A stretch of 64,000 bases of DNA from Branchiostoma floridae (lineage: Eukaryota; Chordata; Leptocardii; Amphioxiformes; Branchiostomatidae): contig NC_049982.1 in the NCBI RefSeq assembly GCF_000003815.2, forward strand, positions 12,283,785-12,347,784, read 5' to 3'. Both the position numbers and the translations under genes were made by a program. Each line of letters begins with the position of its first letter. Within the stretch, counting starts at the first letter, position 1. Below the pieces are notes generated by a model, which worked only from the letters and a program-made list of their open reading frames with translations, did no database searches and had not been told where the DNA came from. Shown piece by piece: positions 804 to 41,457 of the stretch.

Positions 804-3800
804 TCTTACAGTTATGGTTATCATATATTCTAGACATCTTGTTCACAATTGAGCATCCACGCAGTAAATGTTGGCTTTGTCTCGGCAGCTCGTGGGCTGG
901 GAACGCCGGAACAGAGGTCTTCAGGTCACCGGAAGGGTGGGGCAAATTTAATAGCATGTTCTATATATGATAGGTTAAGGTCAGAGCAGCACTTATTATT
1001 ACTTAATGTAGACAGTACAAACGATATTATGATCGTTAATGTTTTCATGATTCTTTTACAATATTGATTGGCGTGAACAGTAACCGTCATTTCGTGGCGA
1101 CGTAGCAGAGTTTATTTCGAACAAAGACTCGTCCCGCCCCCATGTGACTTTGGACTTGTCCTACCCCAACAGCAATGTACACATGTACCTTGTACCTTGA
1201 TCCCTTAACCCAGTATTCCCGGGTCGTGGGGGCGCTGCATGGTGACGCTGTGAATCAGGTTCCTCCGTTCCATTCGGCCCTGCGTCAGCGGGAGGAACAC
1301 ATGTATATTTATGATAATTGCGGCAACGTTAACACCGGATGTGGGTAATTTTCCAGGTAATTGATTCCCACAAAGCAAAATAGTAATAAATCGAGACACG
1401 CTCAAACGTATTTACGTTAACTTTTTATGTCACAAATGTTCATATTTGCTTCATCACATCCTTCTATTCTGTAGTACATGTATACTAGTAATATACATAT
1501 ATTGGTGATCATATGTTCGGCCAACACAACCACTCATTCCTTCAAAAGCATACTCAAAAGCATATAAATTTCACATTCTAAAAGTCGGATATACGCAACA
1601 AGTATTTTGCGCATCTTGAGACTGTTCTTCTGAGTACACACGTAAGTTTCGGATTGGAGGGAAATGCCTAAATGAGGTACATAAACTGGAACTAAAACAA
1701 CACATATTTTTAAGTAAATTACACGGGACATTTGGTGGAGAATTTACGAATCCATGATTCCCTGGTGCCCGCCATTCCATGAAGAACTGCTCTATCATGA
1801 AAGCCTGGGTGTCGCGAAAGCTAGAACAATTTAGCGTTGTCTATTTCTTATCAATGAAAGCTAAGGGTCAGAACTTTCCATAATCATCCTGCTGAATTAC
1901 TATGGAAAAACTCTCAGGTCAAGCGCGAAGAGTCTCCCTGTGCTTTCTTTTCATTGCTTCAATCATAGTACAATATGATTAACGTTGAGGTTGAATCAGC
2001 TTCTTTCTTATCCATGTTAGATCATCATAATAGATGTGATACAATCGATGGCAGGTGAATATTACAATGAACTGAACACATAAAGATTATCTGGAAATAA
2101 AGCGGGTATATACATTTTGGCAGTGCCTACACGATGTGGGGGTGGGGTTTTCATACCTTGCTTTACCATGTACAATAAACCATCCACGCTAGAACTACCT
2201 GTCGGAAGCTTTGTCCGATTGAGTACACTACATTGGGACCGCGGTATTTTTGTTTGGTTGTTTGGGGACGCCGGAAGTGAGTGGGTTGTCGGGGCACAGG
2301 GAAGGGTGGAACCAATTAGGCGATTCTATTTCTTTTTTAGGTAAAGTCCAAGCAGCATAGATTTTCATACATAATAAATGACCTGAGATTACCACTGTTC
2401 TCTCATTCTAAATACAAGCCGACAAACAAAAGATACCTTCAACAATACGAATATAATCTTAATTAAGGAAATGTTTTAGGTGTTGCCGAAAAAGTATTGC
2501 ACGGGATCCTACCGGAAGTAACTCTGTGGTGGTCCAGCCCAACGTATTGTTATCATAACTTTGACAACCACCTGACGAACTGTGTTCTCATACAGATTCT
2601 CGTCAAGAGAGAAAGTTGATTCCCGCCAATCAGTGAACCATTTCACCACGCAAAATTGTTTCTTAATCAGAGTTCAATAATGATTGTCACTAGAGTTATG
2701 TAAAGAATTTCCCCTTGCCTCAAGGGACAACTACATTTAGGTAAATGGTCATTCTTATTGCGGAGACATATTGGCAGATGCATTGGTGGTGGACTTAAGA
2801 ATGTTTATTCATTTCCTGTTGTTCCTGGAAGGCGCTAGTCAGCAAGTACAGTGTTCCACTTAACTTCTAGCCAATGTTGGTAGAGTTACTTCCTACTTCG
2901 TGCCACGGTGCTCGGATCTCCACGTGGCTGCAGTCGCATAACCCCGCGTAAGCCGCACACGGCTCCGCACTAGGGTGGACGTCTCCTATGTTCGCATACA
3001 TGAAAGACTGGGACTTAACTACGCGCTATGGTTCGGAAGAAACTACGATGGTTGAAATTCTTTCACAGGTGGGTAATGACTACGCAGTTTTATTTGCGTG
3101 TCCACTATGGGTCTTTTCGATCGAATTTTTGCTGACCAAAGAGGTCCTTTTTTCAACCTCCTTGGGCTGACGGACCTGACCGGGCGGGATAGTAAGGCCA
3201 GGGGCATGAGGGGGCTTCGTTCCTGTTCTCTGCTAGATGATCATGCCTGCATTTGATTTGTCAGAATTGTTCTTCTTTTCAGATAGTCCCGGCATATCCG
3301 GGGGTAACCAAACTGTGGTTTTGGGTAGGTAATTAGGACATTCAATTTTTTTACCTAACCCAAGAAGGTCATGTTTTCGGTAGCGTTTGTTTGCGTATGT
3401 CAAAAAGATATGGATGACTTGTCATGAAAGTTGGTTTGTCCTATCGAAGAAATGCTGCGATTTTTCATTTTTTAACGGTAAGTTAATTTGAACGACTTAT
3501 TAGCCTGCTTTGCATGATTAATGAGAACATTGTACAATCTTTACGTGGAAAATGGTGGCATATCCATACTAGTGACACATGTAGGCGAGATGGCTGAGGA
3601 TATCATCAGACATTAATAAGGTAATGTCACAATATCTTCATGAAGAAGGATATTTTCAACATATGTGATTTGAAAATAGAACATAATGACCTTGTATAGG
3701 TTACGTTAATGATATTAAACTTTATATTTGCAAAGACTGCACAAATCTTATTGATTAGTAAATATTCAAATAGTAAGTTTTGGGACATGCATCATGCAAA

Positions 3801-5849: not shown

Positions 5850-6750
5850 ACCGATGTTAGATTTATTTTAGACATGATTGACGTGGGTTTCTCCACGTGC
5901 GAGATTCCATTCTTGGGATTCATGCGTTCAGATGTTAAAAATGATTTTGTTTAAAAACAGTTCAACCTTAATGAAACGTTGCGTTAAAGATATAAATACC
6001 TGAATCATAGCCTTCTTCGATTTCTGGCCCATGATGGAAAATAGCGAACCGGCGCTAGCCCTCCCCCCAGTCACGACTACTGAAAATAGTTTCTGAGTCA
6101 ACATGTTGGTCACGACAACAGGAAAAATTCAGTCTGTTACTCACGTTGTTAGCACAGGCAGGGGGAGCTATGACTACAGAAGTGGCCGACAGAGTTTCAC
6201 TCATACCAAGGAGGTTTCACTCACACTAACATCCTTGCTCATACCATGACGCCTTCAGCATATCATTACTTTTGTCACTCCTGCCACTATAATCTTACCG
6301 ATATATACTATAATCTTACCGATATATACTAGTGCGGACTGATTCTAGAGCTCAGGGTACTCATGTTGGTAACAATCAAGGTGAATCTGACGCCTGTAGT
6401 AATGGAGGAAAGTAACATGCGGAGAAAGAAATTGCCGGTCAAACAAGAAACATTCCGGCTGCCCAGTAGGTCATAACTCCACAGTCTGATGAAACGCGAA
6501 GAGTATAAGAAGAATATAATTATAAGGTGTCTCAATGATTTAATGACAGGGAGAAATGTTTCCAAATCGTAGATTTTCTACCGTAAACCCGTTGATATCA
6601 TATGCAGGACATCACACCTACAGTCTCTACACGCCCATGAGTCACCACGTCCTGCGCTTCACTTTTCGTAGAATCAACATGATGACAAAAACGACTACTT
6701 CTGCAGTACTGTTACTATGTAGGTCTACCAATCCACCACGCCGACACCAC

Positions 6751-6832
6751 CACCATGCCGGTCGGGACTTGGCGGACCAGACGGTTCTTTATTGTGTCCT
6801 ACTGGCTCGCCAAGTCCTAGTCGGCTGCGGTG
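6751..6832 (+). ncRNA. pri-miRNA-like stem-loop, cluster member 1
   Basis: The 5' arm CGGGACTTGGCGGACCAGAC pairs with the 3' arm CTACTGGCTCGCCAAGTCCT, and the basal CACC pairs with GGTG. The stem is therefore about 30 bp with a loop of about 20 nt, in 82 nt total. The stem resembles five other hairpins in the next 4 kb. Member 1 and member 2 also share about 200 bp of upstream flank, so this pair arose by local duplication. Strand is arbitrary because a hairpin folds from either strand. A miRNA identity is an inference from shape, clustering and arm conservation; a foldback repeat family is the alternative. Confidence 0.4.
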
Positions 6833-7256
6833 AGAAACGCCTGTCGATCCCCACCGCCAAACGTTTCGCCGATACTCACCGATATATTCATTCCCTACCC
6901 ACTAAGTCATAGCTCCACAGTACTAGTGTGATGTAACGCGCCGAAACACAATGAGTGAATGAATAAATGAAGACCTTTATTGTACATACATACCCACTAG
7001 GTTCAATACAGGTCACAACAAAAGATACATTGAATATATACAATGAATCTACAATACTCAATGTATCTATTTAACGACGGAGAAAAATGTTGCCAATTCG
7101 TAGATTTTCGTACCGTAAAGCCGCTGATCACACATACGGTCTCCACACACCCCTGAGTCACCACGTCCTGTACTTCACTTTTCTAAGAATCAACATGATG
7201 AGAAAAACAACTCCAGCTGTACTGTTTAAGGTCTGCCAATCCACCACCACCATGCC

Positions 7257-7341
7257 AGCTGTAGCCGGTCGGGACTTGGCGGACCAGACGGTTCTTTGTC
7301 GTGTCCTACTGGCTCGCCAAGTCCTAGTCGGCTGCGGCGAG
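7257..7341 (+). ncRNA. pri-miRNA-like stem-loop, cluster member 2
   Basis: Almost identical to member 1 in both arms (three or four changes) and extended at the base by CTGTAGCC pairing with GGCTGCGG. It lies 507 nt downstream of member 1. The shared flank (GTAGATTTTC, GAGTCACCACGTCCTG, AGAATCAACATGATGA) shows that the duplicated unit is larger than the hairpin. It may be a microRNA precursor or a repeat; expression is needed to decide. Confidence 0.4.
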
Positions 7342-8754
7342 AAACACCTGTCAATCTCAACCGCCAAATTTTTCACGACTCTTTCCTGACTACGAATTTT
7401 TGAGGAACAAGTTGTAATTCGCATCAGGTACACAGCAACGGGCCAGGGTAAAATGAGCTAAACCCGCGCGTAAAGGCGCAAAACAATACTACAAGTAATG
7501 TGCAGTACATGTGAGAAAGTATTTGGTCTGGGTGCGTTTTTGTTTTCTTTGAGTGTGCTACTTGACAAAACTCGTCAAAACTTGTAATTTCCACATTATT
7601 GGCTTTCCCACAAACTTAGTAATGGCTAACACGAATGCCCGACTACAGAAACTACCACTACTGCAGCAGCAACAATACTAGTAACGTAACAACAATAACA
7701 TGCTGCAGTCAAGGTTTTACCTTTGGGTAAAAGAAAAGTGTCTGGTTTAATTTCTACATCCATTATTGTACATGACATACCAATGCGATGTTACTTCTAC
7801 CGATGTATGAACAACTTGTTCAGAGAATCTCCACTTATAAGTACAAGTTAACTTTATTTAGACAACTTTCATAGCTGATCTACTAAGCTTTGAAGCTTGA
7901 TGACAGTATGCTGTTGTTATGACTGATAATACTACTGCAGCTAACAATGTTTAATTAGCATTTGAGAATGTTAATGTTCTACATTTAAGAAGAATGTAGA
8001 TACAAGGATGCTATATAATCATCGGTAGAAACTTAGAAATTTTCTTCTTCCCAGTCTGTTTGATACTATCAATTGTGCTTACTTGTTCCATTGCAAATCC
8101 TTTGCCATGTAAAGACTTTCAAATTAAGATGCATGTAGCATAAAAAAATCCCCACTAGTCCAAGATGTATTTTTCTTAATATTCTTCTTCATCTTGCTAA
8201 AGTAATGGAACCAAATGCAACCCGAGTAAGTGTTTGACTCATAACGTGGCTGCTGACCAGGACGTCAGAGTTTACAACGTTACTCTGACCAATAAAGTTA
8301 CTAATGTTGCCTCGCGGGGTGGTGGGACAACGCGGAATCCAGTGCCGAGTAGTGTATGACTATTTTCTATCTACCTATACAATGTTTATAGCGTTAGATG
8401 CCTATATCTTATCTACTTTATATCTTCTGAAATTCATTGGCATGTAGGATATACTCCCACGGCGTCCACACCTTCTGAGTCATGGCGTTCTGTGTTGCAC
8501 ACGGTGGGGGAGAACAGGCATAGAACCGTGCTACATTCTCTACACCTCCAGATTCACCACACCTTTTGTAGAATCAACATGGTGATGAAAATAGTTTCAA
8601 TGTTACTCACCTGCTGTAGATATAATCTTCTATGTACACCTTTTGAGTCACTGTATGGGCTACACTTTTCCTATGTAGAATGAGCTAAAAAATAATAAAC
8701 GCAACTGCAGGGGCATTGTAGGTATTTGGGACGGGAGCGACAGTCAGTATCGCC

Positions 8755-8838
8755 CACTGTAGCCAGTCGGGACTTTGCGGGACAGACGGTTCTATATCGT
8801 ACCCAACTGGCTCTCTAAGTCCTGACCGGCTATGGTGA
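8755..8838 (+). ncRNA. pri-miRNA-like stem-loop, cluster member 3
   Basis: The 5' arm CAGTCGGGACTTTGCGGGAC and the 3' arm CAACTGGCTCTCTAAGTCCT pair with a few mismatches. The base is CACTGTAGCC against GGCTATGGTG. Part of the upstream flank of members 1 and 2 (TTTTGTAGAATCAACATGGTG) is still recognisable at about 8,565-8,590. Length is 84 nt, matching the other members. Confidence 0.4.
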
Positions 8839-9567
8839 CTCTCATCGACCACAGCTCCACTCGATCTTAACCGTGAGTTTTGCAAGATAACTTTCTGATC
8901 GCTTGAACGGAACAGTTAACTCTTTTAACATTTCCGAGAATTTGCTGAAAGAAATCCTCTAGCACGGAATATAATACACATACACGTAGTGTATGCATAA
9001 CATACATACAGCAGAAGACATGTACCAAACATATTCTTTTTCTTTTCCTTTTCTTTAACTAAAACAATACTGTTAGGTCATTCCATATTTGTTGGTATAA
9101 GAAGACACGTCGACAGCCAGGAAAAGGAGTGCCTGTATTGCGGATATACAACTCATACAACTATAAAAAACAAAATAAGATAAGTTCATCTGAATGAAAT
9201 ATGCGCCTTAATCTTTGTGCCAAATCGTAACTTCTTCTATAACATGAGCCTGCATGCTATGATTAAAAAAATGGCATCGCCGTTTGACTCAATCTCGTGT
9301 GAGAATTGATTTGAGAATTAAAACTGATGTTAGTAAAAGTCTACAACTGTGTGGGCGGAACGATGTAACCGTACATTAGGAACTATATATATATAATTCG
9401 CATTTCTTAGGCCGTGGGCCCAATCATGCGGCTACATATCTACAGACCTTCAAATGTATACATAAAGTCAGTCAATCTTATTAACTTTAGCATTCCACAT
9501 CCGCCTATTTCTAACATTAGGAACTAAAGATTTCCCTATATATGCTTTAAGTTTAACAAAACATGCT

Positions 9568-9652
9568 CACCGTTACCGACCGGGGCCTCGTGAGTCAGAC
9601 GGTTCTATATATCGTATCCTACTGGCTCTCAAAGTCCTGATCGGCTGCGGTG
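9568..9652 (+). ncRNA. pri-miRNA-like stem-loop, cluster member 4
   Basis: The basal pair CACCG / CGGTG brackets a stem formed by CCGACCGGGGCCTCGTGAGT and CTACTGGCTCTCAAAGTCCT. The 5' arm is the most diverged of members 1-5, while the 3' arm stays close to consensus. If this is a miRNA family, the 3' arm would be the better candidate for the mature product. Length is 85 nt. Confidence 0.38.
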
Positions 9653-10034
9653 ACTTTCCGACAGTGTGCTGAATGTTTGCTTCCATAAAATGTAGAGAGG
9701 AAGGTTAATAAGCACAACGTGTCATTCTATCAACGCTTTCCGGATCTTCTTGTCTGAAATAGTATACTGTATTCAGAATAAGATGAATAAACAGACAAGC
9801 GAAATTGTGTATGATAGAAAATATTAGATCTAAGGATTAAAGGAAAGAAGAGTAAAAATTCACGAAAAGAAATAGTTAAAGCTTTCGTAAATACAGTTCT
9901 GACAGCATTCTTGCCTAGATAAGTCACATTCGCAAGTTCGTCTTGAAAGTCACCAGAGCAGTCTAAATCCATGTGGATCCAAGTATTCCCTCAGTACATG
10001 ATTTGGCGACACAATGCACGTGCCAAATGATGCC

Positions 10035-10117
10035 CACTGTGGTCAGTCGGGACCTCGTGGGCCAGACGGTTATGTAACAGACCCTACTGGCCCGCTAAGT
10101 CCTGATCGACTGCAGTG
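10035..10117 (+). ncRNA. pri-miRNA-like stem-loop, cluster member 5
   Basis: The base is CACTG / CAGTG. The arms are CAGTCGGGACCTCGTGGGCC and CTACTGGCCCGCTAAGTCCT. The pairing GGGCC / GGCCC is a covarying version of the GGGCC/GGCTC site in other members. Length is 83 nt. The flanks are unlike those of members 1-3. Confidence 0.4.
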
Positions 10118-15900: not shown

Positions 15901-18900
15901 GGCAGTCAGCCTGCATGAACCTGCCATGTTAACAGGGCTTTTTTGTTTCTCTTTCTTCTTTTTCTCTTGTTTGTTGCCACAAAGATCAGATGGTAGAACG
16001 AACGCGAGGTTTGACGTATGACGTTGGGTGACGCCCGCCAATGCGGCGAACAGCGGGCAACACAACAGCTCCAATCCACCGCCATGCCACTCCACATCTT
16101 AGGTTCCCTGTCATCGCCATTTTAAGACTGTAGTCCATTTTTATCGTTACCTAGCACTGTTCGTGTCTAGACAAACCATAACTGTTGACAGGGATAAAAA
16201 TATGTTCTGTTTTTATTGAGTCCTAAAGCTGAGGCCACTATAGATGCGTTATTTGCTTGTCATTTTAAATTGTGGGAGCCATGATTTGAAGTAAGGGCAA
16301 GAATTGATAAGACCATCTACAGCAAACCTCATCCCGTGATTCGTGCTCAACTTGTTAGATATTTGGGAGGGGACGGTACTTTTCTTTGGGGAGTGAAGAG
16401 GTCTCAAAATAGAAGTTTGCATGTGTATGGGGAATCAAGGGCTCGCTTGAAATCTGCCATACTATGAATAGCTGTGACATGGCTTTTTTGTGTAACTGTT
16501 GGGTGTGGGAGGTGGCATAAAGCCCTTTGCGACCACTAACTGATGCATTTTGTCTCCCCTTCCTGTCTTTTTCTCTTGTGTATTTTTGTATGATGTAGTA
16601 ATAACCCAGCAGGAGTGACACCATGTGGACCGGATGGCGCGCTCATGCTTCATATGGCGCATCCGCCCTTTATGTTGGCCGCTATGGCCGCCGGGACCGC
16701 GATGGGTAACACAGCGGAGAAGAAGGTTTTGTGTTAGCTCTTCCCAGTGTCAAAGTGTCTCTTGTCCTCTACATACAGCATATTCCACACACACATTGCC
16801 AGGCAAAGTAAACTAAATAAAACCACCTGAAATCAATTTCTCATAGGCAAGACTTTTCATTCTTGAGCTCTCTTCTATCTCCGACTTTGTTTTTTTGTTG
16901 ACTTTTAAAGATTTTGTGGAAGTTTGACTCAGCTTCACATCCCTTTAACTTCAATATTAAAGGTTAACTCTGAAGAGAGTAATAGACTGTGTTCAAATCT
17001 CCAATTACACTATATAATGGGGACACGCACACGTTCAAACACATAGATTTGTGTCTGCCAATCAAAATAACACTCTCTCCCTGTACTTGAAATGGCAGAC
17101 ACATTTAGGTAGTAATCTAAGTAACTAAGGAGACTTATTCATGGTTTCAGGCGATGAAGGAAAGGGAAAGGCCCCTGGGCTACCACCACTGACCAAAGAT
17201 CAACAAGAGGCAGTGACAAAGGCAAAGAAGTATGCTATGGAGCAGAGCATCAAAAGTGTGCTGGTGAAGCAGACCATTGCACACCAGCAGCAGGTATAGA
17301 AATGTCTCTATTGCTCCATGAGTAGTGGGTGGATTTTTCTTTTTGTCTTCCCTTTGATGAAAGGCAAAGAGTAAGGTGATTTGTCAATGTAGACATGTAA
17401 GCAAGGAAGCAATAGTCATTGAATTAAAGGGATTGTATCAATATGTGCTGAAGAAGATAGGCTGAAATATTGTAACACCAGTCTTTACATCACAGTCATA
17501 GATAATGGTGCGCACTAAAATCATTTTAAACATTCCATGTACATGTGGAGACTTTGTCCAGTTGTGTGAATAGATGCACATTGGTCTTTTATTAACTCCG
17601 ATCTTGATTGTTCTTCAGCAAATGACCAACTTACAGATTGCAGCCCAGAGACAAAGAGCCTTGGCCCTTATGTGCAGGTCAGTATATGCATTAGTTGAAC
17701 AGTAGCTGAACTCTCACATTGTTCATGAATTTTATTAATGTCTAATTTTTGTGATATTTTCTTGATTTATCTTGTCCACTCTGCATATCATCTCAAATTA
17801 TCTAACTTCACAACTTTTTTAGAATCTATGTTGGATCCATCTACTATGAGCTGCGAGAGGATACTCTGAAGCAGGCCTTCAGTCCATTTGGTCCCATCAA
17901 GAATATAGACCTGTCGTGGGACCCGCTGACCATGAAGCACAAAGGCTATGCCTTCATCGAGTACGAGATCCCTGAAGCTGCCCAGCTGGCTCTGGAGCAG
18001 ATGAACGGGGTGATGTTAGGTGGAAGAAATATCAAGGTATGGGGTCGGCTGTGGTAAAGGTAATCACTGCTTATGGAAAGGAAAGTGGCAAGTACTGTGA
18101 CATGTCACAAATACCTTTTAGCAGTTTAGCCTTGGAAAAGTAATGTTGTGTTTCCAGTTTTGGTCTTTGATTTAAAAAAAAAATAGGGCATTGAAAATGT
18201 AATGGTGCATGAAGCTAGGAGTTTGGGATGGTTGGGAAAAACAGTAACAAGTAGGCAGGGTTGAAAGTTGATGATATTTCTACTAGTCTATGTTGTAAAA
18301 TTTTTCATTTTTTTATAAAGTAGAAGATAGAAAAGAGGTTTGTAACAATATTGATTTATGTACTTATGTTGCATTATGTTGCATCAAGCTAACAGTTTGT
18401 TAATCAGTGTTAAAAGTTTTTTTTACTATGTTTACTATACATTTTAGCAGAGATGACATTTCATGATATTGATAATGTTAAATGTATTTTCTTTGACATT
18501 TACTTTCCCATTTTGTGTTGAAAATGTTTGACCTATGTCACAAGTATTAACCTCATTTTTGAGGCATGACTAGAATTTGACCCCTCGAGCATCTCAAGCA
18601 GACTGACAGTTGCCCCAGGCGTGCTGCTGTACAGGATTGTTGTGATTAGTCCGCTGAAAAGATGCTACAGGATGTAGTGATCGTGTGGCAGCAGTACTTG
18701 ACAACCTGTCTTACAGTGGCCTGCAAACATTTTGCACCCCCCTCCAAATTATCTTGAAGATGTGCACAGAAGTTACTTTGACAACTCCAAGCTGATATGT
18801 CTAGCCACAAACTTTTGCTAACATATCTGACAGGCTTTGCCACGGCAAGCTGTGCCCTGCCCCCCTCCTCCCCATGACAAGGCTAGTTACTGAGAGGTTG

Positions 18901-21900
18901 TGGAATGGACCTCCATACGTAGCGGGACTCAATGTTTGCCGTTTCTCAGGTGGGTCGCCCCAGCAACATGCCTCAGGCACAGCCTATAGTCGAGCAGTTG
19001 ACTGAGGAGGCGAAGCATCACAACCGCATCTATGTTTCCTCGGTCCATCCTGACTTGTCGGCTGACGACATAAAGAGGTCAGCATTGCTGCACTTAGTCG
19101 TGTTAAACCCCATTTGTCATGTCTCCTTCTGCAGGTTGGTCGCCCTAGCAACATGGCGTCGGCTCAGCCAATAGTAGATCAGCTTGTAGAGGAGGCCAAG
19201 CATTACAACCGCATATACGTTTCCTCAGTGCACCCCGACCTTGCGGCTGATGACATAAAGAGGTCAGGGTTTTCACATAATGGAGTGCCCAAGGAAGATA
19301 ATCAACCCAGACCCTCTCACCAATGTGTAGTTAAGACTTTTCACCTTAGCTAAGCTCACAGAGATAGCTATCACTGCTGTGGTGCTTCATATGTCACCAT
19401 GACAGTACCACGACATGTAATAACTGCAGTACAGTCTTTCCTTTCTTTCCTAAAGGCGAAGTCGTCATCTGTACAATGTTNNNNNNNNNNNNNNNNNNNN
19501 NNNNNNNNNNNNNNNNNNNNNNNNNNNNNNNNNNNNNNNNNNNNNNNNNNNNNNNNNNNNNNNNNNNNNNNNNNNNNNNNNNNNNNNNNNNNNNNNNNNN
19601 NNNNNNNNNNNNNNNNNNNNNNNNNNNNNNNNNNNNNNNNNNNNNNNNNNNNNNNNNNNNNNNNNNNNNNNNNNNNNNNNNNNNNNNNNNNNNNNNNNNN
19701 NNNNNNNNNNNNNNNNNNNNNNNNNNNNNNNNNNNNNNNNNNNNNNNNNNNNNNNNNNNNNNNNNNNNNNNNNNNNNNNNNNNNNNNNNNNNNNNNNNNN
19801 NNNNNNNNNNNNNNNTGTGTTTGAGGCATTTGGAAAGATAAAGTCTTGTGAGCTGGCACCAGATGCAGTCACTGGAAAACATAAGTAAGTATTGCTTCGC
19901 TTTCCTAACATAAAAACTGTGTGATGTATTCCAGAACTGTTAAAATCCTGTTTACTGTTTTGAATCACTGTCATATCCTTGTAATGGATTTTTAAAGTTT
20001 CTTGTGAGAACATGATAATGATATTTTATGGTTTACCTTTCACAGAGGTTATGGGTTTCTAGAGTATGAAAAGCCACAATCTGCACAAGACGCCATTGCA
20101 TCAATGAACCTATTTGACCTTGGAGGACAGTACCTTAGAGTAGGAAAGGCTGTCACACCTCCCAAACATGTAAGTACATGACTTTTTTGTTCTATGCTCT
20201 TCTTTTCTTAGTACATTTGTACTGACATTTCATGAAGATCATATTTTAGTTACTGACACATGCCGTGCTTGACAATTTGAACACAAAATTATGTCCTACA
20301 GTTTTATGGAATGGAATCATGGCATTGTTTCTTGTTTGAATGAAGACAGGACCTTATGCTGGAATGAAAACTTACTGCTCTCTCTCAAATCGATATGCAC
20401 TTAGTAAATGCTAAACTTTTGCAAAAAGCCTTCAAATGTTGTTGAATTATACAGATATGGCAGTCACTAAAAAGATGATGATTATGTGCTGATTATAGTA
20501 ATGAAAACTGACATGTGTACAATACCCTCTCCCCTGCAGGCGCTGAACCCACAGTTACAGATCTCGTCCCCGGCTGGACCAGGTGGGCTCCCACCAGCTG
20601 CTGCTGTAGCTGCTGCAGCTGCCACAGCCAAGATCACTGCCCTGGAAGCTGTGGCCAGTACGGCTGCTGTCGTATCAGGCGTGCAGCCAGGGGTGAGTAC
20701 GATCAGCTCGACGTCACAGGTAAATATGATCTAAGTAGTCAAGAACACTTGAGTGATTGAATTTTCAGGTATTGTCATACATACTTGAGTCAAGGAGGTG
20801 ACTGTCAAAGTAATGTCCTTGTGTTGTAATGTATTTTCTGAAAGGGACCTTAGCCTTGATATTGAAAAGCTAGGTCCTTCTGTAGCCAAATTTTTTGTTA
20901 CAAGTTGTTTGTGGTAGTTGTTGTAAAATGATTTCTAGAAAGTTTTACTGTCCAGTTTTGTAAAAAAAAACAATAACTGTAGAAACTTACTAGTTGCTGC
21001 AATTAAAGAAATGTTAGAGATGTCTATCCTTTGTACCTGAGTGTGTTATGACTACCTGCTCCTTTGTGTTTTGTCAGTTTTAGTGATTTGTTGCTGTTGT
21101 GTTGTCTTTCTGTCAAAGTTGCGTATTATGTGTAGAAAGTGTTTTCAATCAAGGTTTGAATGTCTTGCACTCAACAGCTTCTCTCCCAGTCGATGCCAGG
21201 TCAGCCTGGCCTGTCCATTCCTGCCCCGGGGTTGGTGCAACTTCCTCAGCCAGTCATGGCGTCATCTGCACCAGGTCTCATCACAGGTGGGTTATCAGTA
21301 CTTGTTTTTCTTTTATGGCAAGAGATCTTTACAAAAATTCTTGCTGTATTCTCGACAAAAGAATATGGTGTATGGACAAAACGGCACATGTACTCTTCTG
21401 AGCCATCAAACATTTCTACCATAGATAAGCATGTTGTGTAACACATTTGGCAGCATATTTTTAATACAGTACTAATGTCTAAGTGTTTTCTTCATCAGGT
21501 GTTACACCAATGAAGCCAGCTGTGACCACCACATCCTCAGCAGGACCAGCTAATGAGGAGCAGAGAAAAAAGGTTGAAGATGACCTACCACAGACACTGG
21601 GTCAGCAGGAGAATCTCTCCATCTCAGGCAGCAACGCCCGCCACATGGTCATGCAGAAGCTGCTCAGAAAATCAGAAGTAAGTTCACTGGATGATCTAGT
21701 GTTAAGTTATCATGGTTTTCCAGGTCTGATTTGTTCCAAGACTAAAAACAGTGCTATTGAATTGAGAAATTTATAAGTCTGTTGGGTGCTCAGTGATGGC
21801 ATGAAAGTGTAGGCTTTGTTGATGTGTCACAAAAATTAGACATTTTATTAACCCCATCTCTCTGTCTTTCAGTCTAATGTGATGATCCTAAGAAACATGG

Positions 21901-22449
21901 TAGGGATTGAGGACTTGGATGATGAGCTGGAAGGGGAAGTGACAGACGAATGTGGCAAGTATGGCCAAGTCAACAGGGTTATCATCTACCAGGAGAGACA
22001 AGGAGAGGAGGAAAATGCAGACGTCATCGTCAAAATATTTGTGGAGTTCTCTGAATCTTTTGGTGAGTCGTGGAGAAGCAGATACATGTGTCTGTTACAT
22101 TTTCACTACTGGTAATGGAAACTTCCATGTATGTACTTTCATTCTGGATCGTACTGTGTTATGTTGAAGCTTGAAAGCCAGTTATCTTATTACTGAACCT
22201 GTTTGTTGTTTTCTCAACTCTCTATTATGCTTTCTTTCTGCATGTATGCCTATGATACTTGGTACCCCTCAATAAATGAATACCATAAAACTTTGTCACA
22301 AGGATCTTAATTGTGACAAATATATTTTTCCCCATACAGAGGCTGAACGAGGTGTCCAGGCCCTGAATGGCCGGTGGTTTGGAGGCAGAAAAGTCTCAGC
22401 AGAGTCGTATGATCAGCTGAAGTTTGATTCACAGGATCTATCAGGGTAG
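12945..22449 (+). CDS. PUF60: PUF60, poly(U)-binding splicing factor (13 coding exons)
   Basis: PUF60 binds U-rich RNA and helps U2AF define 3' splice sites in the nucleus. Coding exons: 12945-13013, 14473-14524, 17151-17293, 17619-17677, 17823-18036, 18950-19077 or 19135-19262 (alternatives), 19816-19884, 20046-20169, 20540-20692 (or to 20719), 21178-21286, 21499-21677, 21873-22062, 22340-22449. All have GT/AG ends and matching phases and sum to about 532 residues, against roughly 559 in human. Residues about 60-90 hold the conserved [20 protein letters not shown] helix. RRM1 (about 108-180) has IYVGSI and [11 protein letters not shown]2 (about 206-285) has RIYVSSV and KGYGFLEY. An Ala-rich linker and a C-terminal UHM (about 434-532) with the RWF motif follow. 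An in-frame ATG at 12,960 is a possible alternative start. The vertebrate 17-residue alternative exon before RRM1 is absent. Confidence 0.96.
15287..15500 (+). other. Two perfect-arm hairpins in PUF60 intron 2
   Basis: AGAAACTGTCATGG (15,287-15,300 region) is exactly complementary to CCATGACAGTTTCT (about 15,372-15,385). AAGCCAGTGCCCT (15,446-15,458) is exactly complementary to AGGGCACTGGCTT (15,488-15,500). The two stem-loops lie about 60 nt apart in the intron. Intronic structured RNA, a small-RNA precursor or a foldback relic are all possible; no family was recognised. Confidence 0.5.
18950..19077 (+). CDS. PUF60: PUF60 alternative exon 6A
   Basis: This exon encodes the linker after RRM1 and the first strand and helix of RRM2: [20 protein letters not shown], then [20 protein letters not shown] and IK. 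The acceptor is TTTCTCAG and the donor AG|GTCAGC. It is 128 nt long, enters in phase 0 and leaves in phase 2. It is homologous along its whole length to exon 6B 57 nt downstream, while the flanking introns are not alike. Either exon joins correctly to 19,816. Confidence 0.93.
19135..19262 (+). CDS. PUF60: PUF60 alternative exon 6B
   Basis: This is the second copy of the same exon: [20 protein letters not shown], then [20 protein letters not shown] and IK. The acceptor is CCTTCTGCAG and the donor AG|GTCAGG. It is also 128 nt, phase 0 to phase 2. It differs from 6A at about seven residues (for example PQ to AS, E to D, T to V, H to Y, S to A) and at many synonymous third positions. The intron between the copies (19,078-19,134) is only 57 nt. 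Confidence 0.93.
19481..19815. other. Assembly gap (335 N)
   Basis: The gap lies in the PUF60 intron after exon 6B. Its right edge coincides with the first base of the next exon, whose T completes the Ser codon begun by AG of exon 6A or 6B, so the splice acceptor itself is missing. Further exon copies could be hidden here. Open frames that cross it are meaningless. Confidence 0.98.
20693..20719 (+). other. PUF60: 27-nt alternative donor extension of PUF60 exon 9
   Basis: The exon beginning at 20,540 has two good donors in the same phase: CAGGG|GTGAGT after 20,692 and CACAG|GTAAAT after 20,719. The longer form adds nine residues, VSTISSTSQ, to the linker before the UHM. Both forms keep the frame, so either or both may be used. 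Confidence 0.5.
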
Positions 22450-28000: not shown

Positions 28001-31000
28001 ACATAAAACCACCATGAACATTTCTGCATTTACAGTAAGTTAGTTGATGTCAGTATAAAAACAAATCCATATGATACATATAGTACCATCAATGCTGTTT
28101 GTATTTTTAGACTAGTTTACAGGAATACCTTATAATAATATGAAAGTCTGTTAACCAATATATTGATATGTCCTCAGGTGTCGCTCTGATACAAGAAGAA
28201 GAGAGGACGACACTTAAAAAAGTCAGATCATTTGGAACACTGAGAAGAGAGTTTGAATTGTCTGATTGTTACCACTTCTGCAGACAAGGCATTGAGGTTA
28301 GTACATAGTTCGCAGATTTAAGGATGTGGACTTTGTACGTCTGACTTTACATTTATAAATTCTTCAACTGCTAACTAGGTCATTGCCAAGGTTGATAACG
28401 GTTCTTTTCTGTCAACTTTATTCTGCTGACAATGCAATTCTTTAAAGCCCCTAATGGCATGCTGCCCCTTGGAAACTTGCATCATAGAAGATTCAAAGTT
28501 GAATAGAAGTCAGTATTAATTGAAGTTGGTAATATAATCTATCCATATTATTGCCTTGGGGTAAACATATCTGCAGGGAATAATAAGCAATGCCTGTAAG
28601 GAACGGCCGGCCTATGTGAGCCTTATTTCACACCATCATATAGTGTGGACATTGACTTTGGACAAGGTCTTTATGATTCAAACAAAAGTTTGAGTTTGAG
28701 TTTATTTAGATCCACAAGTAGCCCCATAAGAGGCTATTCTTCCTGTGGTTTACACATTCATAATATTACACATTACATACGTACAGTTAAAAACATACAG
28801 AGACATACAAAGTAACAATAGATAGCAGAAGTATCATAATAAGTCTGTTTCACATTTTAAGAATGGATGATTGTTTTACAATTACAGGCTATCGCAGATG
28901 ACAGTGTAACAAAATGCTTTTCAGCTGCTGGTAAGCCATGTTGATGTTGTTTTTTTCAACTTCCAAGGTGTTGAAGATTTTACATTTTGTTTGAACTTAA
29001 CTGAATGGACATTCTTGGAGTGCACAACTAATCTTTCTCAATTTACCTGTAGAGTTGCCATCATGGAATCTTCTAACAAGAACAAACACACATTACGAGT
29101 TTGTAAGGTAAGACAGTGTTTCCAACAAGAATTTATGCTGCTTTGAGTCCAGATTGAATGTTCTGCAGTCATTCTACTCATGTTTAAGAACCCATGAGAG
29201 ACAGCAAATAGTAAAAACTGAAATATCTAATGATTTAAGGTTTGAAGAGTCTTTTTGTATAACATGCAATATATAATATATATAATGAGGTGAGTTACAT
29301 TTTGTTAATTGTATTATTGTCTAGTTGAGGATACTGTTTGTAGGAATATCACAATACTATACTATAGAGTATTTTTAGAGTCTTAATTATCATAAAAAAC
29401 CCGTGATATTTTACTTGCAGCATGCGACTCACAATCCTATGGGTGATAGGGTTCCTCTTCAGGTACTGCTGTCTTCTGCCCATGAGGTAAGTGCTGTGCT
29501 GTGTGGCCGACAATGCTCAGCTCAACCTTATGTCAACATTCATTATGTTTGAACATGAAAAAAGAAGGCATGCAATTAATCTTATGCATAAGATCTTTTG
29601 TGTTCAGCATGCTTTTTTGTCTCAGTGATATTCCTGGCTGCTACTTCTGAATGTGCTTGCCTATTCTTGCATACTCAAGACATCTCGTGCAAATGTTTGT
29701 TAGCTATTGATTCCAAAACTTAACTGTTAAATTTCACTTTCAAAATTCATAATGAAAGGTAATCAAACCACAAAATATGAATAAAACTGTACCAAATTCT
29801 GTTTGATTCCGAGTGATTATTGCAACATTGGTATGATAACTGTAGTTGTATTCTAATGTAATTGAAGAATAAAACACAAAATGTTTTTACAGGACACATC
29901 AAAAATAATCCCTTTGTCACTGGATAATATGAAACATGGATTATTGACCTTAACTTTGGTATGCACAAATACTAGTACTAGTATCTATGTTTTTTTCTAT
30001 TTCTTCATTTGTCCAGATTTATTCTTACTGTTGTGAGCGTGAACATTTTTCTAATGACAACTGCTGCTATAGGCTTGATGCCTAACTCTCGGTGAGTCTG
30101 CCCTGGTGTTTTTTTATCTGTCACAATGGAGAAGTGTCCGCTTTCTTTCAGAATCATTTATACACACTCAAACATTCATGTACATTGTACAGGCGGATTC
30201 TGCCACAAACACCGGGTCCTCTTTCTAATACTGCAAAGTACCCCATTGTTGTACTTTGAAGAGAACTACTGAGGAGGGAGCTGACACATCTCCATAGGGC
30301 AATGTACTGTGATTAAGATGATGGGTGGATGGATGAATTTCATGCACAGGTTGCTGTCAGTTTCTGAAATTGATACTCTCTCCTTGACACCCCTTAAGGA
30401 GAAGAAAAGCTAAGGAAGACACATCTCAGTTACCCTTGTGGTATTCAACCATTCACCCATCATTTCGTGATGAGATTTGAAAGTTGATTAAATCGATGAT
30501 CACATTTCAGATTGCTGCTGGCTACAGTCAGTATCGGCATCTTCATGGTCGCCACGGCAACCCTTAGTATCTTGCCTAACAATAGGTAACATAATGATAA
30601 TGTTGTGCTGTGTACACTGTTGCACCTCCATTTTTGTCTTCTGCACATAGCTGTTTGTAAGGTTTTAAAATGTCGGGTATTTGGTACTAGAGGTTTTATC
30701 CTTTTTTTTTGTAGTGAGGCATACTCATTATGACCAAGCCTTGTTAGGGATGCATATGAATATGTGGTGCCACAAGTACATGTAAGATTACTATTTTCCA
30801 GCTATGATGAGCCTGTCTCTGTGCTCTACTGCTGTTAACTATTGCATGGTAGGCAACTTGTGCATGCCAGGTTTTGTGCCTGGAGACATCATTGGGGACT
30901 CCTTGCTCTGAGCTGTTGCTTTGTTTTAAACATCTTTCATTGCTTGTGAATATTTTTCCAGTCACAAGAGACATGTCAGCAAGTATGTCAGCCTGATGTG

Positions 31001-34959: not shown

Positions 34960-35355
34960 GGCCATGTTGATTTGATTATATGGATGACATTTGGGCACAT
35001 ATCAATTTTCAACTGTCTCCAAAGAAAAAAAAATTTGAACCACACTGTAAATTGTCCAATGTAGCTGCAAAGTGAGCCATAGATTACAAAAAGATATCGG
35101 AAAATGTATACTAATGTAAAAGAATATCACCGTCAATTCCAAGGTCAAAGAAGAAAGATTCAAAAGAGTGAAAATGAAAAACCTATTGTTTGGCATACCA
35201 TATTCTGTGTGTTTTGTCATTGTTCAACCTTCCTGACCAGTTTTGTTCTGTAATGAAGGCAACTTTTTTTTGGCAAAACATTTTTATTTGCACACTTGCA
35301 TGAGTTTTGGCTGTACCATGGTCCAGAGGATACTAGTAATCAAATCAACAAGGCC
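34960..35355. mobile_element. MITE, GGCCATGTTGATTTG family (copy 1)
   Basis: The left end GGCCATGTTGATTTGATTAT is inverted at the right end as GTAATCAAATCAACAAGGCC. The body is shared with 36,844-37,187 (for example CAAAGAAAAAAAAATTTGAA and GTCAATTCCAAGGTCAAAGA). TAA precedes the left end and TAG follows the right, so the target duplication is imperfect. Non-coding. Confidence 0.75.
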
Positions 35356-36843
35356 TAGGTGGAAACATGAACAGCTGTCAAGTGAAATTTTATGGTCCTT
35401 TATGGCTTTAATACTTATTATGATAGATAAACTTTTCTGGAAAAAGGGAAATGTAATGGTGAAGAACATACATTTACAAGTATGTATATTGCATAAATCA
35501 TCACAATCTACTGAAGAGGAATAAAACAGAGGTTTGACATGTACCAATTTACTTAAAACTTTAGAAGTTAAAGGAAATCATATCTTGTTGCATTGATATC
35601 AAGCAAAGTAGAGAAGCTGTCAAAATGAGTACCAGTATCATGTGGTGAAAAGAAATCGATTTGTTTAAGATAATTTTTTCTATGATATTCTAGTATTCAA
35701 ATTTGCATGAAAACAGGTAATTCATGTACAGTATGTTGTCATGTACTGTGAAAAAGTTTAATTATGATGGTTGGAACAGATGTACATGTGGATTCCCTGG
35801 TATAGGCTCTGAGATTTATTATATTACCAGCAATATGCTCTGTGAGTACTTCTGGAAATTATAGCATGTATATTGTGGTTAATATAGATCTGACAATGTT
35901 GCTTCCAAAGACGTTTTGTTGATTATGAGCCTTGAGGAAGTGTATTACTCAAATGTCCGGTGATAAAATGTGACATTCTTGTTGATAATTATTATGTGGA
36001 ACAAGCTATGGAAGACTCTATTGAAGTTGATTTCTAGGTTTGTAAAACCTTCAAGAGCCTAATAGTATGGTGTTACTGATACACGAATTTGCCAGGTCAG
36101 ATTGCTTGAAAAAGATGGAGCATTTTGTAAACATCTTCAGATGACTATGAATAATAATTAGAATGTCAAATCTTATGATTGCAATTTGGTTAATTTGACC
36201 ATCCAATCATCTAATACTTCTGAAAAGAGAAATTATGGTGTGATATGTATGTACTTGCAATCTTTTGTATTTTATACCTGTGATTTGTGTCAACAGCAAA
36301 ATGGTACAAAATTGGCAAAGATGGATGAAGCACAGAGGTGAATACTTATTTGATCATACAATGCTCATTTTACATGTGCCTTTGTATAAAGAAAGGTTTG
36401 AGGTCCAATTGGGAAATACTTGTAGTGCCAATGATAAATCTGAAAGAATTCCTTGACTGCAACTCCAGGTGTCAAATGTCCTAGCTGTAATCACTGCTGT
36501 GTTGTACTGTATTTGATGGTGACTGTATGTGTATGTTCATTGTGAAAAGGGAAAAACTTAACACAAAAACTCAAGAGAGGATTGAGTGTACCAGCCAACT
36601 TAACTGACAATGTGTTGGTACTGCTTCAGGCTTTGTTGGAACAATGCTGCATTGTTTCAAAATCAAGATCTTACATAGCTGGCAGTATTGGTTTTAAACC
36701 TACACGCAACATTCCTGTATAGGGCGCTGTGAATAGTCTTAGGTGCTTTAAACAAAGATTAGATAATCAGTGGATTATAAGTGCATCGTGCTAACCCTAC
36801 TTATTTTATTGTGTAAATTGTACCTGTAACAGTCCCTTGATTG

Positions 36844-37187
36844 GGCCATGTTGATTTGATTATATGGATAACATCCATGCACGCATCAACTTTCAGCCGC
36901 TTCCAAAGAGAAAAAAAGTTTTGAACCATACAGTATATTGTACAAAGCAGCTGCAAAAGGAGCAAATATATGCCATAGAGTGCACAAAAATATTGGAAAA
37001 AGTATACTATCATAAAATGCCAATGTCAATTCCAAGATCAAGGAACAAGATTGCATTCAGTCATCTTTCCTGACCACTTAGATTTCATAATGTAGGCAGC
37101 ATTTATTTTTGGCCAAACTTTTTTTTTATTCTCATCAGTTTTGGAGTTCCAAGAGGATATCATCCATGTAATAAAATGAACGTGGCC
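36844..37187. mobile_element. MITE, GGCCATGTTGATTTG family (copy 2)
   Basis: It aligns along most of its length with copy 1: GGCCATGTTGATTTGATTAT at the left, GTCAATTCCAAGATCAAGGA in the middle and a decayed right end CATGTAATAAAATGAACGTGGCC. Open frames on either strand are not conserved between the copies, which argues against coding. Confidence 0.72.
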
Positions 37188-38101: not shown

Positions 38102-41100
38102 TTAGCATCTCTCGAACACCTTGTAGAGGTCTGGCAGGTTGGCGATCTGCAGGACACTTCTGTCTTCTGCAAACATCTTGGGAGGTAGCAAGGAGGCACG
38201 GAAGGCAGGAAACAATGCATGCTCTACTGTCCACTTCCAGGACTTTGAGTCCTCGCTGGTTGATGCCAGGCTAGATCTGATGGCATAGAAGAGCCCACAC
38301 TCTCTTGCAAAGCTCTGGAAGCATTCTTTTTCATTATCCCAGTCAACTTCCGTTGCTAGTCTCAACACAAACATTGGCAGGCCTTCTAATGGTGGGATGT
38401 AGTTGTCCAACAGTAAAGGCAGGGTGCAGAGGTTTCCATCCGAATCAATTTGCAAAGAAAAGTAGTCCAGAAGCATTGGTGCCTTCTGCTGCAGGAAGGT
38501 CACAATGTACTGTGACAGCTCTTCCTTAGACCCATCCTCTTCAGTCCAACCACTCTCTTCACTATCTAAAGCCAGCATGGCCAGCTCACCAATTGGCGCT
38601 GGCTCTGACAGACGGAGCATGCCAAAGTTTCCAAAGTCGAACAGAGCCAACTGGTAGAACAGCTCCTGGCTCAAGCGGCGTGTGCTGACGAGGTAGAGCT
38701 TGGTTTGGTGCTGGACAAGAGCTCGTGTTGGATCCACACAGCCCACAAACTTCAGCTGGGTCACCATCTCCCTCAGGCCTGTGTGCATATTATCTTTGAT
38801 TTCCTGATGAAGAGTCAGGACACTGGTGAGAGTGATGGGACGTCGTTGGGGAGATTTGTTTCCTTCACCTCTGCTTTCATCTTCTGCAAAGACATAGAAT
38901 AGGCAAAGTTTTATTCACGAGAAGCTAGGTAATGCATGCAGCTAAGGACAAGAACCTGTTTAGAAGCAATGTTTTACTACAGGTTTATGAGAAAAATGTA
39001 TAGAAACTAGAAAGGCTGACATTTGCTTGAGAGCATGTACAACATAATTCAGCCATCTCTCTCCAAAAATTATAATTTAAAACAACGGAGATAACGTGTT
39101 TTGAAGATTTGACAGGAGAAACATTTACGAATACAATATAAATATAAATACAATATGTTTCACCATACCTGTGGTATGGCTGAAATATAAATATAACACT
39201 TATAATAATTTATGGGAGATAGCTTCATTCACAGGCTTCAATTGAAAGGACTGCTTTTTTTCAAAATTTATCATATGCTTGAAAGTGTGAAGTGTGAAGA
39301 CTATCCGACTGCTGATCCCAGCAGCAGTATAATAAAAAATGGATACGAAAGTAAAACAATTTTTTGTTGGCAGTGGTGTGGCAGTGGTGCTGCAGTGGTG
39401 CGGCAGATTTGACAGGAGAAAGAAGAAGAAAGAAGAAACATTACGAATACAATATACACTCGTTCTCATTGTAATGTAAAAAATGGCATACCACCAATTA
39501 TTGCTTCCTCAGATTCCTCCTCTATTCTTTCCTCTCGTGGTCTCTTCTTCTGCTTTTTATGCTCTTCTGTTGCCATGGGAACATCAGTAGCATCAGCATC
39601 CGTCGTCGTGGATGTGGATGGTATGGCTGAATCAACTTCTGCAACTGATGTTTTTGCAGAAACACTGGGAGAAGAGATGATAGGATCTTCTGGTTTCTTC
39701 AGGAATGCTTCAAGTTTCTGGTCCCTGTGGTCTGTTCGGACCAGCTGATGGGCATAAGTCTTGGAAGATGTGCCTGAAGAGGTTCCACTGCTGGTAACCT
39801 CTGACACAGGTACTATAGCTCCAGGCAGTAGAGCCTGCAGAAAGCAGAACATTCGTCATCACTAAAGCTAAAAGATGCACAAATAGCAATCAACTTGGTC
39901 ATCTAATCACTAGGTCTGGTATAGGTAAAAATCTCACATATAATCTTAATTTCCATACTAATCAAAACCCATGCAAGTGGTGTTATAGCAACAAAAGCAT
40001 TCTACCATGATTACATGTATCTGCACTTCAATATGGTTCAGAACTCTAGCATATAGTGTTATTCATTATCACTACTTCAATCTTTGAGCTTTATAAAACT
40101 CAATAGTGGTTACTTGAGCAGGTAGGATGATCTAAATTCAATATTGTGAAACGTATGAGCTATAATAATTCAATTATATGTAAATAACTGTAAATATGGA
40201 CCCCCAAATGGCGATAACAATGTTATGTGAATAGGTTCTATTGAACACCAACATATACTGACCTGAGTAAAGAATGTGCGGGATGAGTTACATCCCAGCA
40301 AACTGGTCTCCACTTGCTTCTGTATTGCCTCAATAATGACATCCTCATGGAGGAAGTGCACCTCATGTTTGGTGGGGTGGACGTTCACGTCAACATGGGA
40401 TGGCATGATCTCCACACTCATGTAAACGAACGGATGCATGTTTTTTGGAAGGTAGGCAGAGTAGACGGCCTCCAGTGCTTTCCGCAGGGCAGTGGAGTCC
40501 ACCAGGCGATGGTTGATAAAGAGAAGGAAGATGAATTTCTTGGTGGAATAGTTTGCATTGGAGATGTAGCCTTTCATTGAAAAAGCCAGCCTGCTGTCGT
40601 CACACTTGACCTCGATGAGCTCCCTGGCGACTGCGGGGCCGTACACCGTGCGGATGTTATCTATGGTGGAGGAGGTAGGGGAGGTACGCAGTTCTGCCAT
40701 GCTTTCTCCCTGCTTCTTCAGTGTGAATCCCACACCAGCGTTATGGATGGCATATCGGCTCATGACCTCAGCGACCTTTGCATGCTCCTCTCCCGGGCTC
40801 CTCATGGCCTTGCGTCGTGATGGAACATTATAGAACAAGTCCTCCACTGTAATCTGTGTGCCTTGGTTCCCAGCACATGGTTTTGGTGTTGCCAGTGGTT
40901 TACCATCTGAGTAACTAGCCTTGTAGGCACATTTAGAATCTGCTGTTCTTGTTACGATGGTAACATGGGCCACGTGGCTGATGCTGGCTAGTGCTTCTCC
41001 TCTGAAACCGTAGGTGGCGATGGATGTCAAGTCTTCGAACTTCTGCAGCTTACTGGTGGTGAAGCGCTCGCACACGATGCCCATGTCGTCACGCCTGATG

Positions 41101-41457
41101 CCCGTTCCATTGTCCTGGATCTGTAACAGCTTCAGACCCCCTGACTTCACAACAACCTGTAGGAGCATTCAATAGAACAGTGTCTTACCTTGACAGGGCA
41201 CATAGAAATACATGTACCAAGGTCCTTACAAAACGTCCTTGGAATACAAAGTTAACTTCCTATTTAATAAATTGTTTCTCATGTTAATATCTACAACAAT
41301 GACACAAACTCCATTTCCTTACCTGAATGGAAGATGATTTAGCATCCAAACAGTTCTCAAGCATCTCCTTCACAGCATTGGCTGGTCTGACAATGACTTC
41401 TCCTGCCGCTATACGGTTCACAACAGTCTCCTCCAATCGGCGAATTGTTCCAGCCAT
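38102..41457 (-). CDS. MLH1: MLH1, MutL-type DNA mismatch repair ATPase (4 coding exons)
   Basis: MLH1 pairs with PMS-type partners to form MutL heterodimers that act after MutS in nuclear mismatch repair and in meiotic crossing-over. Minus-strand exons: 41457-41323 (45 codons), 41156-40263 (298 codons), 39834-39492 and 38883-38102. Splice phases agree (0, 0, 1), total 717 residues against 756 in human. The GHKL ATPase motifs are intact: Glu31 and Asn35 in [15 protein letters not shown] at 60-65, the GFRGEAL lid near 95-101 and [12 protein letters not shown] near 140. The S5 fold ends in [14 protein letters not shown] Ser/Thr-rich acidic linker (about 345-460) with a basic KKQKKRPR cluster follows, then the dimerisation domain with [16 protein letters not shown] and the invariant C-terminal FERC. 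A good acceptor at 41,485 suggests an intron in the 5' UTR. Confidence 0.98.

Follow-up and report, generated by a model that had tools for sequence, protein, structure and literature searches.

A candidate pair of mutually exclusive tandem exons in the RRM1-RRM2 linker of lancelet PUF60

Mutually exclusive tandem exons are neighbouring homologues whose lengths and phases are compatible and whose splice sites are complete, and of which a mature mRNA carries exactly one. A reading frame that breaks when both or neither exon is included is a common, though not universal, further mark. In vertebrate U2AF1, a 3' splice-site factor, the equal-length tandem exons Ab and 3 encode part of an RRM-like domain (UHM); passages of PMC5224494 describe seven residue differences between them, and stop codons and decay when both or neither is used. 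In human OGDH, exclusivity of exons 4a and 4b is enforced by branch points only 25-41 nt from the upstream donor, as set out in a section of PMC7969005. Two further classes, U2/U12 incompatibility and competing docking/selector sites (Dscam-like), are described in part of PMC6071210. PUF60 is itself subject to alternative splicing in humans, where isoforms lacking exons 2 and/or 5 differ in 3' splice-site choice (PMC6093180, in excerpt). Here we describe a tandem exon pair in PUF60 of the lancelet Branchiostoma floridae and compare it with these systems.

A tandem exon pair in lancelet PUF60

We analysed a 64-kb window (C4:12283785-12347784) of the Branchiostoma floridae assembly, which comprises 513 Mb in 431 contigs; positions below are those of the window. 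With the RRM2 region as query, all five best PDB sequence matches were PUF60/FIR. The whole human PUF60 protein gave matches spanning 17177 to 22443. RRM1, RRM2 and the C-terminal UHM are all present with PUF60 as the best match, supporting the gene identity proposed in the initial annotation. At 17619-17677 the lancelet gene is missing 17 residues found in the human protein, presumably those of human PUF60 alternative exon 5.

Within this gene, on the forward strand, the upstream exon (17823-18036; 82% identity in tblastn against human PUF60) carries RRM1 up to ...GGRNIK and ends in phase 0 at the donor AAG/gtatgg. After an intron of 913 nt (18037-18949) comes alternative exon A (18950-19077), preceded by tttctcag and followed by gtcagc. 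A spacer intron of 57 nt (19078-19134) separates it from alternative exon B (19135-19262), which is preceded by cttctgcag and followed by gtcagg. Each exon is 128 nt long, runs from phase 0 to phase 2, encodes 42 residues plus AG, and is bounded by AG before and GT after. The two adjacent exons, their phases, splice sites and spacer are thus as the initial annotation had them, and have the geometry of mutually exclusive tandem exons. The downstream exon (19816-19884) continues RRM2 with SVFEAFGK... and ends at the donor TAA/gtaagt. In the intron before it (19263-19815), 335 of the 553 positions are N (19481-19815); this gap stops exactly before the first base of the downstream exon, so that its acceptor lies hidden inside the gap. 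The gap could possibly conceal another exon copy. Local alignment with exon A found no third copy in either flanking intron, the downstream one being covered over its readable 218 nt.

Exons A and B are identical at 101 of 128 nucleotides, and the 27 differences fall at codon positions 1, 2 and 3 in the numbers 7, 2 and 18. At the protein level 36 of 42 residues are identical and six differ, one fewer than the roughly seven first estimated. Counted by the NG86 method, 17 silent and 10 replacement differences lie over 28 and 98 sites, respectively, giving a dS of 1.24 (bootstrap lower limit 0.60, upper limit saturated), a dN of 0.11 (0.04-0.20) and a dN/dS of about 0.09 (bootstrap median 0.08, 0.01-0.23). 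In simulations of a copy free of constraint, the median number of differing residues was 20 at dS 0.6 and 30 at dS 1.24; at neither value did any of 2,000 simulations show six or fewer residue differences. On neither side do the introns flanking A and B show more similarity than shuffled sequence does (z 0.0 and -1.1), and the exon flanks yielded no remnants of the duplication. Judged from these comparisons, exons A and B are an old, constrained tandem duplicate, in line with the purifying selection proposed at the outset from the silent changes and unrelated introns.

Two rival accounts of the pair have to be weighed against this reading. An assembly artefact would have fused two haplotypes, or two paralogous genes, into one contig; there is an assembly gap nearby, and for lancelets a heterozygosity of 3.2-4.2% and a silent diversity of 0.0397 are given in PMC12862219. 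Even so, 27 differences in 128 positions would arise with P of about 1e-12 at 4% heterozygosity and about 3e-6 at 8%, the introns are unrelated on either side, and 18950-19262 contains no N. Nor does the genome hold an obvious second source: among the best candidates scored across the 513 Mb, a query of 401 bases around the pair retrieved no sequence but its own, and the exon A protein retrieved A and B alone at E values up to 10. An artefact is therefore extremely improbable. The initial annotation had also set merged haplotypes aside; we reject them as very unlikely on the grounds of divergence, unrelated introns and the lack of a second locus in that search. Alternatively, one copy could be a dead or nearly unused exon, and a used and an unused exon cannot be told apart from sequence. 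Against this, both copies retain a low dN/dS and intact splice sites despite silent divergence near saturation. We reject a decayed copy as very unlikely on the strength of this constraint on both A and B.

The age of the duplication can be gauged from its silent divergence. A lancelet substitution rate of 4.65e-9 per site is given in PMC12862219, in a passage that states no time unit; we assumed that it is per year. On that assumption, a dS of 0.60-1.24 would place the duplication roughly 65-130 million years ago, with no firm upper limit. Part of PMC6305399 dates the split of B. lanceolatum and B. floridae to about 72 Mya and the ancestor of living lancelets to about 100-104 Mya, both with very wide intervals. 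Set against these dates, the estimated age implies that at least some other Branchiostoma species should carry the pair.

Frame, spacing and splice signals

The reading frame constrains how A and B can be combined. Inclusion of both exons leads to a stop within the frame-shifted exon B, bearing out the initial claim that double inclusion breaks the frame, and skipping of both leads to a stop after two codons; an open frame is thus kept only with one exon of the two. Both early stops sit upstream of later exon junctions, a position that as a general rule leads to nonsense-mediated decay. Decay of mRNAs with both exons or neither is therefore expected, and rare products of either kind would be cleared in this way.

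The spacer between the exons adds a second constraint. Of the As that precede the acceptor AG in the spacer, none is more than 42 nt from the exon A donor. The seven branch-point candidates listed for it are 15-42 nt from that donor, and the best, A19106, sits 29 nt downstream of the donor and 28 nt short of the acceptor. For joint U1/U2 assembly, a passage of PMC7969005 cites a threshold of about 50 nt. Any of these As, if it served as the branch point, would have the spacing of the steric, OGDH-like class, in which the branch point is less than about 50 nt from the upstream donor. Splicing of A to B should be hard because any spacer branch-point A is so close to the A donor that the U1 and U2 particles would clash on the spacer, hindering the joining of the two exons. 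With a generic branch-point matrix, three sites within exon A outscore the best spacer site (4.91 versus 3.48); a branch point inside exon A, if it served exon B, would preclude A-to-B joining altogether.

The spacer is also the shortest of the 11 PUF60 introns; the other ten, of which one is mostly gap, measure 145-913 nt. The initial annotation had regarded the 57-nt intron as probably too short to splice easily. As a barrier it is not absolute: excerpts of PMC8363638 describe splicing of a 56-nt human HNRNPH1 intron with SPF45, and introns of 43 and 49 nt. Finally, the donors gtcagc and gtcagg and the AG acceptors look by eye like ordinary U2-type sites, which places the pair outside the U2/U12 incompatibility class, where one site is U12-type and the other U2-type. 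Taken together, and as judged from the DNA, we put at roughly 80% the probability that exons A and B arose by an old tandem duplication and are used in a mutually exclusive way.

How the choice is made, and why the pair is kept, could be read differently. Choice might be governed by competing base-pairing between introns, at docking and selector sites. Pairing of exon B with the spacer beats 97 of 100 shuffles, although it is one of seven pairings tested, and the fold of 18900-19300 has a z of -2.07; both signals are weak. The pairings between introns themselves look ordinary: 66 of 100 shuffles do as well as the upstream intron with the spacer, 40 as well as the spacer with the downstream intron, and 17 as well as the upstream with the downstream intron. 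No competing intron-intron pairing above chance was found in these sequences, which include the readable 218 nt of the downstream intron, and we consider this mode of choice quite unlikely. The stops may matter more than the proteins if the pair is kept mainly as a poison switch, with which PUF60 would cut its own output through double skipping or double inclusion and the protein difference would be secondary. Both the both-in and the both-out product do carry early stops, and human RBM39 uses a poison exon this way (PMC10477243, in part). In PUF60-depleted human cells, moreover, those PUF60 transcripts that persist are without exon 5 (a passage of PMC6093180), and human PUF60 affects the exon pairs of U2AF1 and OGDH (passages of PMC5224494 and PMC7969005). 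Yet a poison exon has no need of a conserved peptide, and both A and B are constrained as protein. Their acceptors are not unusually U-rich either, with 9 and 10 U in 20 nt against 5-11 in nine other PUF60 acceptors, and binding of lancelet PUF60 to the exon pair is hypothetical. We therefore hold a role mainly as a poison switch to be doubtful, perhaps one chance in several, and autoregulation of PUF60 through the exon pair to be plausible, if unproven. In our preferred reading of a mutually exclusive pair, splicing probably adjusts PUF60, which is a splicing factor in its own right.

Predicted consequences for the PUF60 protein

By the common topology of RRMs, the exon pair encodes the RRM1-RRM2 linker, strand 1 of RRM2 and the start of helix 1. 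The initial annotation was right about the linker and strand 1; it had also included helix 1 as a whole, of which only the start is encoded here. The residues that differ between A and B are at exon positions 8, 9, 15, 18, 24 and 37. The first four belong to the linker. By the same topology, residue 24, His or Tyr, immediately precedes RRM2 strand 1, and residue 37, Ser or Ala, falls at the start of helix 1.

To relate these positions to the human protein we used our own alignment, in which exon residue k corresponds to human residue 201+k in the numbering of PMC7703929. In passages of that structural study, R204 and N207 are reported to touch bases through their main-chain groups. These align to exon residues 3 and 6, which are identical in A and B, as is RRM2 strand 1. 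The same passages describe two linker helices that cross and stabilise or fix the orientation of RRM1 and RRM2, and dimers induced by nucleic acid; another crystal study reports no RRM1-2 dimer contacts (PMC10229228, in excerpt). Exon choice would yield two forms of PUF60, alike in their RNA-contact residues and different in their linker residues. Because the linker helices set the placement of RRM1 relative to RRM2, exon choice probably alters how the RRMs pack or dimerise, and with it the 3' splice-site preference of the two isoforms. The six mild substitutions might also be functionally neutral. Lancelet PUF60 offers a natural pair of linkers for studying RRM1-RRM2 packing against 3' splice-site choice.

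Related factors and known exon pairs

We examined three related factors in the same genome. RBM39, called a PUF60 paralogue in a passage of PMC6093180, has tandem exons of 93 nt each, at 3245-3337 and 3394-3486 of the locus G000:C6:13599500-13609000. Like the PUF60 pair, these lie in a U2AF65-related factor, encode part of an RRM, have a spacer of 56 nt and are set in unrelated flanks. Of their 93 bases 58 are identical, and of their 31 residues 18, with a dS of about 1.75 and a dN of 0.35. Unlike the PUF60 exons, they lie in RRM1, at strands 2-3 by RRM topology, differ at 13 of 31 residues and keep the frame with both or neither included; exclusivity there is therefore not enforced by the frame. 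The 9.9-kb lancelet U2AF1 locus (G000:C1:4867500-4877400) has one good match to the exon duplicated in vertebrates, a single exon at 3576-3508 with 67 nt between AG and GT that is the homologue of Ab/3, and a scan for tandem pairs gave 0 matches there. Pieces of U2AF2 RRM1-RRM2 gave a single match each, apart from one overlap. Reading 1 kb showed these two overlapping matches to be distinct exons in succession, and the lead was rejected as a duplicate. Hence, of the four related factors, two (PUF60 and RBM39) have a tandem pair, U2AF2 having been covered in part, by its RRM1-RRM2 pieces and that 1 kb.

The scan sought equal-length tandem pairs of open frames between AG and GT, with thresholds set after the PUF60 and RBM39 pairs were known. 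Across both strands of the 64-kb window, the PUF60 pair was the sole match. In 20 random 9.9-kb stretches from eight contigs of the same genome, 198 kb in all and too small a sample to gauge the genome-wide frequency of such pairs, there were 12 matches. In eleven of these, unlike in the PUF60 pair, the flanks on one side or both are related (z of 3 or more); the twelfth, with flanks at z 0.0 and 2.0, lies within a tandem-repeat array.

Several other features of the window were recorded in passing. Within 6553-7374, 8752-10115 and 34960-36929 (forward-strand coordinates), self-comparison showed pairs of similar stretches on either strand and in more than one frame, a pattern that interspersed or tandem repeats would produce. 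On the forward strand, 30015-30092 and 30509-30586 have similar hydrophobic translations (42% identity over 26 residues) 416 nt apart, a pair absent from the output of the stricter exon-pair scan. The reverse strand has open frames of 270 and 332 codons at 38102-38914 and 40170-41168, clear of N gaps.

A broader and tentative proposal, which we regard as unlikely on present evidence, is that U2AF65-related 3' splice-site factors repeatedly gain mutually exclusive RRM-type exons, as in lancelet PUF60 and RBM39 and vertebrate U2AF1, and that the lancelet PUF60 and RBM39 switches, with their 56-57 nt spacers, regulate themselves and each other. If this were true, the cell would reset its 3' splice-site preference through isoform choice in the choosing machinery itself. 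The lancelet pairs make it possible to test whether 3' splice-site factors tend to evolve RRMs that can be switched, and whether the switches are self-regulating.

In open-licence literature, as represented by titles, the beginnings of abstracts and some passages, we found no report of the PUF60 or the RBM39 pair. Tandem exclusive exons as such are already known from U2AF1 Ab/3 and OGDH 4a/4b, and the PUF60 pair would be a further instance of them. It resembles U2AF1 Ab/3 in belonging to a 3' splice-site factor, in its equal-length exons and in the stops that follow from using both or neither. It differs in gene and domain and in exon length, 128 nt here against 67 nt there, and is neither in the same gene nor an orthologous exon; lancelet U2AF1 has the corresponding exon once, and the U2AF1 and PUF60 duplications are therefore separate events. 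The human PUF60 isoforms likewise show that splicing of this gene can alter 3' splice-site choice, although they omit exons rather than choosing within a duplicated pair, and the exon 5 peptide lies near RRM1. As with the OGDH branch points, the candidate branch points of the PUF60 spacer are close to the upstream donor; in OGDH, however, the spacer is longer and a great distance separates branch points and acceptor, whereas the PUF60 spacer is 57 nt overall, and OGDH is not a splicing factor. In an invertebrate chordate, the PUF60 pair would be the counterpart of what vertebrates have in U2AF1, another gene of this machinery, with RBM39 as a further case.
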